A stretch of 64,000 nt of DNA, taken from assembly GCF_037976825.1 (NCBI RefSeq), contig NZ_CP150269.1:4415501-4479500 (forward strand), written 5' to 3'. Source of the stretch: Paenibacillus sp. FSL K6-1330 (GTDB lineage Bacteria; Bacillota; Bacilli; Paenibacillales; Paenibacillaceae). Positions 46,668 to 49,021 of the stretch are shown here, piece by piece. The notes beneath the pieces were generated by a model. That model saw nothing but the letters and a program-made list of their open reading frames with translations. It was not told the origin of the DNA and ran no database searches. Position 1 is the first letter of the stretch; the number at the start of each line of letters is the position of its first letter. The translations under genes and the position numbers were made by a program.

Positions 46668-47138
46668 TCAATACAGCTCCGTTGACCTGCATGCACAGAT
46701 CACATACCGCCCATAGACTTGGGCTCCCTGATAACACCAATCTCGGCCGATATAAGGGTGCACATATTGCGAGATGCAATCCTGACACTTGGCTCGATGT
46801 CCTACTGGATCACTCGTATACCACCACCCGGAAGGATAAGGACATAGACCTTTGCAATCGTTAATCACCGTCTTGGGTGTGCAAATAATATAATCGGACG
46901 GACAGGAAGCATCTGCGCCGCAGCCCGAGCAATATTGTCCATGCGGAGGCCGGCAGGGCCCCGCAGCAAACGAGATTTTGACAATATCGTCATCATCGGG
47001 CCGGACCAATACTTTGGCAAGCGTCTCGGCCGTTTTTTGCGCAAATTTATTCAGTAGCGACTTCCGATTCATCTTCCGGGTAACCCGGCTGATCAACACC
47101 TGCGTCTCTTCGTCCTTGTTCTCCGGCTTCCGCCACAT
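46668..47138 (-). CDS. 12-cysteine MauA-like (methylamine dehydrogenase light chain-like) protein
   Basis: 156 residues. The first 60 carry no cysteine: charged, with NRKSLLNK near 24-31 recalling the Tat region of MauA precursors, but without a hydrophobic core. From residue 62 on there are 12 Cys: 62, 70, 73, 79, 86, 95, 99, 118, 121, 135, 148, 150. MauA also has 12 Cys (six disulfides). W134-C135 matches the WC that carries the second TTQ tryptophan in MauA, but the first TTQ tryptophan seems replaced by T or V near 90. An active TTQ amine dehydrogenase is thus unlikely. It follows MauD- and MauE-like genes in the mau gene order. No MauB is present. Confidence 0.7.
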   Translation of the reverse strand: MWRKPENKDEETQVLISRVTRKMNRKSLLNKFAQKTAETLAKVLVRPDDDDIVKISFAAGPCRPPHGQYCSGCGADASCPSDYIICTPKTVINDCKGLCPYPSGWWYTSDPVGHRAKCQDCISQYVHPYIGRDWCYQGAQVYGRYVICACRSTELY

Positions 47139-47152
47139 ACTCTCACCTCATC

Positions 47153-47692
47153 TTAAGAAGCCCTTGATGCTTTCGCGTACGCTTCAAGTTGTTCCCGACT
47201 GTTGACCAATCCCTTATGCCGGATGACGCCGTTCATATCCACCGCATAGGCATAGGGGGTGACCTGCACATCCAGATGATTCGCAAACTCCGAACTTACG
47301 ATCAGCACCTCATCGTCATAAGCCATTTTTCGGACATAATCCGATGCTAAATCCACGGACGAGAATAACAAAAGAATGGGTTTCACGTTATTCATCTGGG
47401 CGATCCGCCTAAAATCAGGCAAAATATCGGCGCATTCCTTACACGTCGGCGATCCGAACAGCATGAGGGAAGGCGTGCCAATCAGCTCGCTCGTGGACCA
47501 CTCGGCTCCTTGCAAGGTCGTCGTTGTGGCCCCGGGTATTTTTTTGCCGACCGGAATGCCGGACTGATTCACGCCTCTCGCGGTACCCATCACCATAATC
47601 CCCAACTGCCGGAACAGGACCAGGTTCAGAATGACCAACGGTACGACCAGAATCCACAGCATGGTATATGAGATCCAGAAGAACGTGTCCAT
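47153..47692 (-). CDS. MauD-like thioredoxin-fold protein
   Basis: 179 residues. One N-terminal membrane span (about 8-33), then an extracytoplasmic thioredoxin-like domain with the redox motif SPTCKEC (C84, C87) and DVQVTPYAYAVDMNGVIRHKGLV, the cis-Pro strand. MauD helps to form the disulfides of the MauA light chain. The gene lies between MauE-like and MauA-like genes with short gaps (10 and 14 bp), which is the mau order E-D-A. Confidence 0.85.
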   Translation of the reverse strand: MDTFFWISYTMLWILVVPLVILNLVLFRQLGIMVMGTARGVNQSGIPVGKKIPGATTTTLQGAEWSTSELIGTPSLMLFGSPTCKECADILPDFRRIAQMNNVKPILLLFSSVDLASDYVRKMAYDDEVLIVSSEFANHLDVQVTPYAYAVDMNGVIRHKGLVNSREQLEAYAKASRAS

Positions 47693-47702
47693 CGCGGCCT
47701 CC

Positions 47703-48230
47703 TTACAACCTTTTTATTTTGGAAATATGTGTTGCGGCAATCTCTCGGTACATTCGGATCGCGTGCAGCGCATCCGGAACGCCTATGATGATAAACAGCG
47801 ATAGCAGCAACATCATCCCCTCCATAAGCAGGCCGGTAACAGCGAAAGAGTGACTATGCGCAAACCAGACAGGATGGCTGTAGGCCAATCCCATGAGACC
47901 CATCGCCAGATTGAACCCAATCAATGGAAAGCCAAGCTTGGAGTTGATCTGAGGTCCGAGGCAGCCGCAGTCCACCCTTCCTTTTTTCCGGATGAAATAA
48001 GCGACGCCCAAGCCCTGAACGAAATAGAGTAAAGAGATGCCCCGGAAGCTGAGCCGCGATGGAAAACAATATACCATGGTAACGGACAGGACTTGCAGTA
48101 GGGTGAGCAGAACATGCAGACGGGCACTTCCGGGGAAAAGATCGGGGTCACCGAATACACGGCTCCAGCCAAAGCTCACCACCGACAACAGCATGGGCAG
48201 AGTAACGGATATCGCGAGCAAATCGTACAT
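47703..48230 (-). CDS. MauE-like (DoxX-related) redox membrane protein
   Basis: 175 residues with four or more membrane spans. RKKGRVDCGCLGPQINSK carries C88 and C90, the CGC(L)G motif of MauE that probably exchanges electrons with MauD. The start follows AAAGGAG and the gap to the MauD-like gene is short, so they are one operon. Confidence 0.85.
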   Translation of the reverse strand: MYDLLAISVTLPMLLSVVSFGWSRVFGDPDLFPGSARLHVLLTLLQVLSVTMVYCFPSRLSFRGISLLYFVQGLGVAYFIRKKGRVDCGCLGPQINSKLGFPLIGFNLAMGLMGLAYSHPVWFAHSHSFAVTGLLMEGMMLLLSLFIIIGVPDALHAIRMYREIAATHISKIKRL

Positions 48231-48252
48231 GGGTCCCTATGCTCCTTTCTCT

Positions 48253-48897
48253 TCAGTAGCTGATGATCCAGATGATGGAACCGATAATCAGCAGCTTGGA
48301 TACCGTTTGCCGCACGGCCGTGAGAAGCGTGAGGTTGCGTACTCTTTTTTCAAGCATACGGTACACGATGGATCGGATCAGCGGGAGGCTGAACACGGTA
48401 CCGCGAACGACTCCAAACGTTGCGCCTGCCAGCAGGCTCAACCACCATGGAGCGGCGAACAAGGAGACCAGGATATAGGCGTGAAAGAGGACGCCCACCT
48501 GCAATGTGATAAAACCCAAGCCCAGAATCTGGCCCCATAATACCGCGGAACGGTACCCTGCGTGCTTGATCCATTCCGAGGGAACGATGAAATTGCCGGA
48601 TGGAAGAATTCCCGTTTTCTGAATGAACTCCAAGCCCAGGAGTATGGCAAACAGCACGACAATAAAATAGTTTTGATATAAACCAACAGGGGTTAATTTG
48701 AGCAAAAGATTGATGAACCCGATCGCCAGTCCCGTCATAGCGCCGCCCAGGGTACAGGACACGATATACACCAGCGCATATTTGGATTTACTGACCTTCG
48801 TGCCCTCCAGACTGCCTAACACATTCAGCCCACAGGTGGTGTCCACGCTGGCCACTGCAGCACCGACGGAAAATATAAAGAGCAACATCGACAGCAA
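48253..48897 (-). CDS. Polytopic membrane protein in the mauF position
   Basis: 214 residues from a TTG start (GGGGAGGTGG six bases upstream); an in-frame GTG 14 codons earlier has a weaker site. Six or seven spans. TTCGLNVLGS near the N-terminus holds one cysteine; a further C is in IVSCTLGGAM. MauF, a CcdA/DsbD-like protein, occupies this position in mau operons, but I cannot show sequence similarity and give only the positional match. It is first in the operon with the MauE, MauD and MauA-like genes. Confidence 0.7.
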   Translation of the reverse strand: MLSMLLFIFSVGAAVASVDTTCGLNVLGSLEGTKVSKSKYALVYIVSCTLGGAMTGLAIGFINLLLKLTPVGLYQNYFIVVLFAILLGLEFIQKTGILPSGNFIVPSEWIKHAGYRSAVLWGQILGLGFITLQVGVLFHAYILVSLFAAPWWLSLLAGATFGVVRGTVFSLPLIRSIVYRMLEKRVRNLTLLTAVRQTVSKLLIIGSIIWIISY

Positions 48898-49021
48898 GTC
48901 ATGCCACCTCCCCACAATCCCTAGGAATGAACCCTTCACTTCTTCATCTTATGAGTGACAGCCTGTCGATTATTTACACAAATATGCGATGGATATGCCC
49001 GCTACATGGCTATCTTATTGA

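Follow-up and report, generated by a model that had tools for sequence, protein, structure and literature searches.

Among described systems, the closest to the locus reported here is the mauFBEDA operon of Paracoccus denitrificans (L009, NC_008688.1), with which it shares MauF, MauE and MauD homologues as well as a 12-Cys protein that carries a leader; the relative order of these genes is the same. In contrast to the Paracoccus operon, the unit in the window (the whole 64,000-nucleotide stretch of Paenibacillus sp. FSL K6-1330 DNA that was analysed) lacks mauB, amicyanin, mauJ, mauG and the TTQ tryptophans. In addition, its mature 12-Cys protein is not significantly alignable with MauA, and its relatives carry extra tat genes and a TGA codon in mauF. 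We know of no established part for MauF in the assembly of methylamine dehydrogenase.

A second point of comparison is provided by the decRiPPter work on Streptomyces (PMC7794033), the available part of which describes three candidate RiPP families with mauE, one of them also with mauD, every cluster having a precursor of at least eight Cys. These families resemble the present locus in that mauE/mauD stand next to a protein of at least eight Cys while the other mau genes are missing; compared by description only, they differ in that no MauF, Tat genes or selenocysteine are named in that part of the report.

The mau-like gene set and its distribution

Four minus-strand ORFs occupy positions 46668..48897 of the window, separated from one another by 22, 10 and 14 bases, and encode, in order, a MauF-like membrane protein, a MauE-like protein, a MauD-like protein and a 12-Cys protein. 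This arrangement, as well as the CGC motif of the second product, the SPTCKEC motif of the third and the 12 Cys within the 156-aa fourth, agrees with the initial annotation, which had also proposed looking for the four genes in other Paenibacillus genomes. All four indeed co-occur in 7/7 Paenibacillus loci (L001-L007), and Bacillus sp. V3-13 has the same four genes in a different order, with mauE interrupted by a contig end; given this recurrence, the set is not a chance association. The module is patchy within the genus (11/100 genomes), and the single positive among the 398 genomes of the phylum sample is the window genome itself. Two pattern matches were found in viral contigs, neither of them a relative of the module. 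Among plasmid records, P0017, P0018 and the MauF-like P0034 each match one record, that of Nonomuraea, which at 11.85 Mb looks like a chromosome; there, two distinct cassettes are adjacent to each other. Together, the four genes have the look of machinery that builds disulfides into a Cys-rich protein and exports it.

Gene 1 (48253..48897, minus strand) encodes a polytopic membrane protein of the Cys type, with 214 aa from the TTG at 48897 or 228 aa if translation begins at the GTG at 48939; the TTG is preceded by GGGGAGGTGG, which makes a better ribosome-binding site than the one in front of the GTG. Its sole invariant Cys is C36 (228-aa numbering), encoded by TGT in the motif TT-C-GLNVLGS, and is the residue encoded by TGA in relatives. 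The MauF-like family aligns with MauF of Paracoccus and Indioceanicola by hhalign at 96.5% (E 8.5e-10) over 176 columns of the membrane domain including the invariant Cys, which falls on the Cys of the MauF motif SP-C-G, whereas 50 block-shuffled control alignments gave at most 2.1%. Cys-type members by themselves reach only 0.6%, so the link to MauF goes through the TGA-type members. Judged from these alignments, gene 1 is a distant MauF homologue, so that the operon order corresponds to mauF-(B)-E-D-A with mauB gone, a closer mau parallel than the initial annotation, which left gene 1 without a name, had described. In the AF2 model (pLDDT 81.7) the first helix is interrupted at residue 34; Foldseek found no fold match for it in the PDB, and with a best E of 0.1 a CcdA/DsbD-type fold remains a mere analogy.

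Gene 2 (47703..48230, minus strand) encodes a 175-aa MauE-like membrane protein with the motif VDCGCLG. It scores 26.6 bits (E 8e-6) with Pfam PF07291, for which the cut-off is 27, and aligns with MauE by hhalign at 95.4% (1.8e-8); relatives occupying the MauE slot score 72.8 and 44.1 bits with PF07291. Gene 3 (47153..47692, minus strand) encodes a 179-aa thioredoxin-like protein with an N-terminal membrane anchor and a CxxC within its SPTCKEC motif. Although it aligns with MauD by hhalign at 99.8% (3e-28), its TIGR02661 score of 72.4 bits (E 3e-20) lies below the equivalog cut-off of 188.6, and it was therefore filed as MauD-like rather than MauD.

The heavy-chain gene mauB, already reported as missing, does not occur in the transcription unit, nor did it turn up elsewhere in the genome: PF06433 gave 0 matches in the window genome and three relatives (G000, G070, G028, G495), while two control plasmids match at 702 and 104 bits. 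The earlier suggestion of a mau-type maturation set without its heavy chain is supported, the set having apparently been repurposed for a different Cys-rich protein.

The 12-Cys protein in the mauA position

The fourth gene (46668..47138, minus strand) encodes the 156-aa 12-Cys protein. In the family alignment A4, comprising 31 sequences including that of the window, 11 Cys and W106 are each present in 31/31, and the part from the first Cys onward measures about 95 residues; P0007 (90 aa, truncated) was excluded from A4, and also from alignment A2. The identification of this protein as MauA, by contrast with the apparently repurposed maturation set, was not supported. The initial annotation had set a PF02975 search beforehand as a test that could refute it, and that search matched 0/31 members at E up to 1; a scan of the window genome with PF02975 gave no match, and the control genomes gave none either. 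A Foldseek comparison of the structure model of the protein returned no PDB fold match, the best E being 5, with MauA absent from the matches. Mature 12-Cys protein and mature MauA align by hhalign at 0.4% with a score of 13.0, whereas shuffled controls reach 21.4. Because the mature parts do not align, the TTQ sites were assigned by motif; so placed, the tryptophan pair was not found in the 31 sequences, the T90/V91 columns having no W and W134 being W in 5/31, in keeping with the remark first made on the window sequence. The protein is thus not demonstrably a MauA, as it has no PF02975 match, no TTQ Trp pair and no significantly alignable mature part.

Other relatives were also sought. The window protein matches no Pfam family below E 0.2 and no NCBIfam family, and nothing among PDB sequences better than one chance match (E 0.95). 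Weak NCBIfam matches to Cys-rich models occur within the family (TIGR04201 in 7/31, best 9e-5; TIGR04117 in 2/31, best 7e-5); they were attributed to composition. On the alignment, the 12-Cys protein and its kin are best described as a small, separate family.

RR stands at the leader in 24/31 members of this family, and at E up to 1 the Tat model TIGR01409 matches 16/31. In the window protein the leader reads NRKSLL, in which the second Arg is lost (N-R-K), and its best 16-residue hydropathy is 0.33, against at least 1.2 in 26/31 family members; neither the twin-Arg motif nor the hydrophobic core of a Tat substrate was found in it. It looks like a decayed Tat-type signal and fits Tat export poorly. 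TatC, confirmed by Pfam, lies within the gene run of L081, L083 and L008, and TatA in L083 and L008. Both this Tat link and the TGA codon lie in relatives, outside the window, and for that reason were not visible to the initial annotation.

In-frame TGA codons in mauF-like genes of relatives

TGA-type mauF-like genes were found in kin of Bacillus sp. V3-13, in two other Paenibacillus genomes and in Nonomuraea. In 11/11 intact genes of this type the TGA lies exactly at the invariant Cys, with no other in-frame stop (L085 and L086 are near copies, and L084 starts at a contig end), while the codon is TGT or TGC in 19/19 Cys-type loci and 2/2 true MauF; at the site the window gene has TGT and no TGA. 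Since a gene caller that reads TGA as stop shortens these genes, the family is easily overlooked in annotation. Four TGA-type MauF-like proteins had no NCBIfam match at E up to 1.

The distribution of SelA was tallied over the genomes carrying a mauF-like gene, nine of TGA type and 17 Cys-only. With a cut-off of 267.9 bits, SelA was present in 9/9 of the former versus 0/17 of the latter (Fisher 3.2e-7), though, with seven of the nine drawn from a single family, the genomes do not count as independent cases. The nine include G581, in which the mauF-like copy is truly broken and has TGA and TAG at places other than the site; without it the tally is 8/8 versus 0/17. SelA-like matches of about 48-55 bits occur in 15/17 Cys-only genomes. 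A tRNA-Sec was found in Bacillus V3-13, both TGA-type Paenibacillus and Nonomuraea, and in Nonomuraea SelA, SelD and SelB over the cut-off adjoin the cluster; sel genes are close to the mauF-like gene in 3/10 genomes. In the window genome, SelA, SelB and tRNA-Sec are all not over the cut-off.

A SECIS-like hairpin lies just downstream of the UGA in 8/10 distinct TGA-type genes. Covariation was seen in 7/7 pairs across 8 aligned sequences, a statistic conditional on the choice of sequences because alignment A7 leaves out L086 (identical there to L085) and the two hairpin-less genes; the same hairpin was recovered by a search without prior specification. Individual hairpins are only modestly stable, the fraction of codon shuffles at least as stable being 0.013-0.313. 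The TGA genes of Bacillus V3-13 (L008) and Nonomuraea A, which have no hairpin at the common place, are the two that accompany the 12-Cys family proper.

The MauF-like protein of the relatives appears, from codon, hairpin and sel genes, to be made with selenocysteine, and would then represent an undescribed selenoprotein family. It would resemble the thiol-redox selenoproteins of PMC13188914, which have Sec at a presumed redox site and for which Cys homologues exist. Table 1 of that paper, as far as available, gives 119 selenoprotein families and subfamilies, such as the TsoB rhodanese/DsbD fusion-like, and among these 119 entries the MauF family is absent. A term search of the accessible part of PMC9312934 found no mention of Mau; within open-access PMC literature, a scope that leaves subscription papers outside, no paper joins MauF and selenocysteine, and no title on a MauF selenoprotein was among the matches listed there.

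Proposed function and alternative explanations

We suggest that the MauF-like, MauE-like and MauD-like proteins serve one Cys-rich partner in place of methylamine dehydrogenase. The partner would be taken across the membrane, in the relatives by Tat, and would receive disulfides from MauD, while MauE and MauF would re-oxidise or proof-read MauD. If the relatives insert selenocysteine at the TGA of the mauF-like gene, we infer for MauF a role in redox catalysis through one thiol or selenol. In the window's clade the Cys copy would work without Sec machinery; export there is uncertain, as the signal is degraded. The Cys-rich protein may end up in an envelope, redox or antimicrobial role. The gene set, its conservation, the F, E and D homology, the failure to find mauB and, in relatives whose genomes have selenocysteine machinery, the TGA at the Cys codon are read from sequence, and to the explanation as a whole, in which the window operon is the Cys version of a compact Mau-like module of which we found no description, we attach moderate confidence.

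Several other explanations were weighed. The module might mature a peptide natural product, MauE, MauD and MauF converting a Cys-rich precursor into a secreted disulfide-rich antimicrobial or signal, as the Streptomyces candidates with mauE and precursors of at least eight Cys (PMC7794033, in the part available), the patchy occurrence in the genus and the two different neighbouring cassettes of Nonomuraea would suggest. However, inspection by eye of the conserved neighbours listed showed no gene for a modifying enzyme, a protease or immunity, the mature part keeps its 11 Cys in all 31 sequences, unlike a diversifying weapon, and its length is great for a precursor peptide; we regard this as unlikely, though worth keeping in mind. 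It is also rather improbable that the 12-Cys protein of the window's clade is now cytoplasmic or bound at the membrane surface, binding metal or acting in redox, with MauD, MauE and MauF retained for another use. The leader of P0001 shares with that of the window protein the lost second Arg and the missing hydrophobic core, and AF2 places two low-confidence helices in the leader region of the window protein, but every Cys is retained, the four genes still stand together with short gaps, and in the relative P0006 the RR is still present together with the hydrophobic core.

That the TGA codons come from genes in decay, through nonsense mutation or sequencing error, is very improbable, although the broken copy of G581 gives a real example of such a gene, for the same codon is affected in every intact gene, across three bacterial groups and without a further in-frame stop, and it agrees with the presence of SelA and with a covarying hairpin in most of the genes. 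A decayed methylamine or amine dehydrogenase operon, whose TTQ protein would still be made and would pair with a heavy chain encoded elsewhere, could account for the gene order and the F, E and D homology; it is already contradicted by the lack of PF06433 in four genomes when both control plasmids match, by the unconserved TTQ Trp positions and by the lack of PF02975, and we give it next to no weight.

We consider it quite likely that the MauF-like proteins are a new family of selenoproteins embedded in the membrane, and that together with MauE, MauD, the Tat proteins and a Cys-rich protein carried by Tat they constitute a dedicated line for export and disulfide folding. Such a line would be able to move as an island that includes selA-selB-selC of its own (Paenibacillus EZ-K15, P. 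glucanolyticus), and the window would hold a form that escaped from Sec to Cys or is ancestrally Cys. The swap of Cys and Sec at the only invariant thiol position of MauF points to a likely catalytic residue; if this is true, a catalytic role in methylamine dehydrogenase maturation would follow, by analogy, for the invariant Cys of true MauF. A sel island beside the Tat/Mau line would exemplify Sec decoding that travels together with one membrane selenoprotein.

Mau-type gene order in the window and its relatives

The four minus-strand genes lie where the initial annotation placed them: the MauF-like gene 1 (48253..48897), the MauE-like gene 2 (47703..48230), the MauD-like gene 3 (47153..47692) and gene 4 for the 12-Cys protein (46668..47138), with intergenic gaps of 22, 10 and 14 bases. 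An AraC-type regulator gene is found 66 bases past them and a GNAT gene upstream; neither has a fixed place beside the four genes across seven Paenibacillus loci (L001-L007). The four genes themselves recur together in all seven. Gene 2 matched MauE of Pfam at 26.6 bits (cut-off 27) and gene 3 matched MauD of NCBIfam at 72.4 bits (cut-off 188.6); genes 1 and 4 gave no noteworthy family match in either database.

Profile alignments matched gene 2 with true MauE at 95.4% and gene 3 with true MauD at 99.8%. For gene 1, a profile of 10 sequences matched MauF, represented by Paracoccus and Indioceanicola sequences, at 93.3% (E 2.7e-7), and a profile of 17 sequences at 96.5% (E 8.5e-10, 176 columns), an alignment that places the TT-C-GLNVLGS Cys of gene 1 opposite the SP-C-GYSS Cys of MauF. 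Wrong-partner controls (gene 1 against MauE or MauD, gene 2 against MauF) gave at most 0.3%, and 50 block-shuffled controls of the gene 1/MauF alignment reached 2.1% at most. By subtype, the ten sequences with an in-frame TGA at the invariant Cys (TGA-type) matched MauF at 96.8%, whereas the seven with a Cys codon there (Cys-type) alone gave 0.6%, which is not significant; Cys-type and TGA-type profiles match each other at 99.8%. Judged from these alignments, gene 1 is a MauF homologue. Since genes 1-3 match MauF, MauE and MauD, which bears out the initial proposal of Mau maturation genes, the window order mauF-E-D-(12-Cys) corresponds to mauF-B-E-D-A without B. The proposed lack of mauB also held, as PF06433 had no match in the window genome, in Paenibacillus sp. 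EZ-K15 (G070, of the same species), in G028 or in Bacillus V3-13, with positive controls of 702 and 104 bits in two plasmids.

In Bacillus V3-13 the genes run mauE-mauD-12-Cys-mauF-tatA-tatC-lipoprotein, mauE being truncated at the contig end, and in cassette A of Nonomuraea gerenzanensis mauE-mauD-12-Cys-mauF, with a 173-aa gene of unassigned family directly upstream of mauE (L031:10308-10829). About 1 kb from cassette A lies a second, divergent mau-like cassette (L031:14104-17133), comprising MauE (44.1 bits), a MauF-like gene with TGA, a Tat-led Cys-rich protein of another kind, a MauD-like protein with CPLC and a 257-aa protein of unassigned family. A DUF4871-type lipoprotein recurs beside the TGA-type set (L081:8055-8603, L083:6444-6971 and L008:3282-3740, at 26.2, 17.9 and 24.6 bits; cut-off 25), but not in the P. 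glucanolyticus locus L082 or beside the window operon.

In-frame TGA codons and selenocysteine machinery

A single TGA, exactly at the invariant Cys, crosses the mauF-like frame of Bacillus V3-13 and all three mauF-like genes found in Nonomuraea. A search allowing stop read-through covered 193 genomes of the Bacillus V3-13 family, where a mauF-like gene was found in seven, every one with an internal TGA, and 394 Paenibacillaceae, where 19 genomes carry the gene, each having a Cys copy free of interruptions. A second copy, with one TGA, occurs in two of these 19, G070 and P. glucanolyticus (G024); the window has the Cys form only. In 11/11 intact TGA genes the TGA occupies the invariant-Cys codon and no further in-frame stop occurs, and this codon is TGT or TGC in 19/19 Cys-type loci and 2/2 true MauF. 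The MauF-like proteins of Nonomuraea A and L087 contain zero Cys apart from this position. The mauF-like copy of G581 (L088) is broken by TGA and TAG, both away from the invariant site, and lies near genes resembling a transposase and its helper; this genome still has SelA.

SelA scored above cut-off in exactly the nine genomes with a TGA-type copy (including G581), versus 0/17 Cys-only genomes (Fisher p 3.2e-7, a guide only, as the genomes are related). The most informative comparison is that of the closest pair: in G070, SelA, SelB and tRNA-Sec are above cut-off and a TGA copy is present, whereas the window genome, of the same species, has none of the three above cut-off and no TGA copy. About 5 kb separates selA and mauF(TGA) in G070 and G024, where both belong to the run selA-selB-(tRNA-Sec, other strand)-tatC-mauE-mauD-Cys-rich-mauF(TGA), followed by a lipoprotein gene in G070 only. 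Both compact islands (L081, L082) have the same flanks, a trhO-like rhodanese gene and a 96-aa gene; selD was not noticed on reading the L081, L082, L100 and L101 stretches. Nonomuraea carries selA, a cysteine-desulfurase-like gene, selD, tRNA-Sec and selB in a run reaching to 2.6 kb from the nearest mauF(TGA), its SelA, SelD and SelB all above NCBIfam cut-offs. Within the Bacillus V3-13 family, the seven genomes with a mauF-like gene have selA on a separate contig, except G591, where the distance is about 160 kb.

In bacteria, SECIS elements are located no more than about 40 nt away from the UGA and have G or GU in the loop. A SECIS-like hairpin of at least 7 pairs, whose loop falls at about +36 to +40 relative to the UGA, was found in 8 of 10 distinct TGA genes, the loop containing GGU in seven of the eight and GGG in L087. 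Among these eight genes only, two-sided changes occur in 7/7 pairs, and 96.4% of cells pair, versus 70.4% when shuffled (0/500 reach the observed value) and 52-61% when slid; RNAalifold recovers the same helix unprompted. Bacillus V3-13 and Nonomuraea A are without a hairpin at the common position, and a 7-pair hairpin there was present in 0/8 Cys-type genes. Taken at the sequence level, the evidence for a putative selenocysteine at the TGA of the MauF-like genes is strong. MauF is not among the 119 families and subfamilies in Table 1 of a 2026 selenoprotein review (PMC13188914), no paper joining MauF and selenocysteine was found in the open PMC literature, and four TGA-type proteins had no match in NCBIfam (June 2026) at E up to 1.

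The 12-Cys protein and its leader

The family alignment comprises 31 sequences, the window protein and 30 relatives from protein searches, none of which bears a functional name; named hosts are Paenibacillus, Neobacillus, Bacillus, a Herpetosiphonaceae MAG, Microtetraspora and Sinosporangium. The spread is patchy, with 11/100 genomes in the genus and 1/398 in the phylum sample, the latter being the window genome itself. Eleven Cys are conserved in 31/31 sequences. A GWWY motif is also present (W105 28/31, W106 31/31, Y107 30/31).

The initial annotation regarded the protein as MauA-like. Full-length profiles matched MauA at 88% (E 3e-6), confined to the leader plus the first cluster of Cys; when only the mature parts were compared the match was 0.4%, inside the range of shuffled controls, and the AF2 model (pLDDT 76; mature-part blocks 80-93) had no PDB match. 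TTQ is without sequence support: the T90/V91 columns, where the first TTQ tryptophan was already suspected to be missing, hold W in 0/31, and W134, the second candidate site, is W in 5/31.

The leader has RR in 24/31 family members; in two leaders, that of the window protein and that of P0001, K replaces the second Arg and the hydrophobic core is lost. One conserved Arg, not RR, is seen in leaders of TGA-type Cys-rich partners: SRSTFLK, ERSEFLK, NRKTFLK, SRSTFIK and DRKNFLK in L082, L083, L084, L086 and L087, respectively. Several of these partners adjoin a tatC/tatA of their own, which may be a Tat pair with a signal motif specific to it. In gene lists, tatC was read in the run at L081, L082, L083, L086, L087 and L008 (Bacillus V3-13); Pfam, run on L081, L083 and L008, confirmed TatC at each of these loci and TatA at the latter two. 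The window operon has no tat genes, and three TatC are encoded elsewhere in its genome.

Possible function of the gene set

Streptomyces sets with mauE/mauD beside Cys-rich precursors, taken as RiPP candidates by decRiPPter (PMC7794033), are the nearest precedent found for the repurposing suggested in the initial annotation. As described there, citing van der Palen et al. 1997, MauE is thought to aid disulfide formation in the MADH beta-subunit, and the exact function of MauD is unclear. By MADH logic, the CxxC of MauD may oxidise or isomerise the Cys of the partner outside the membrane, and MauE would pass electrons on. In the tat-bearing relatives, the presence of tat genes beside the set points to a line that would be devoted to exporting the Cys-rich protein; such export may not extend to the window clade, because the leader there has decayed. 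The putative exchange of Cys and Sec at the invariant residue of MauF would mark this residue as redox-active.
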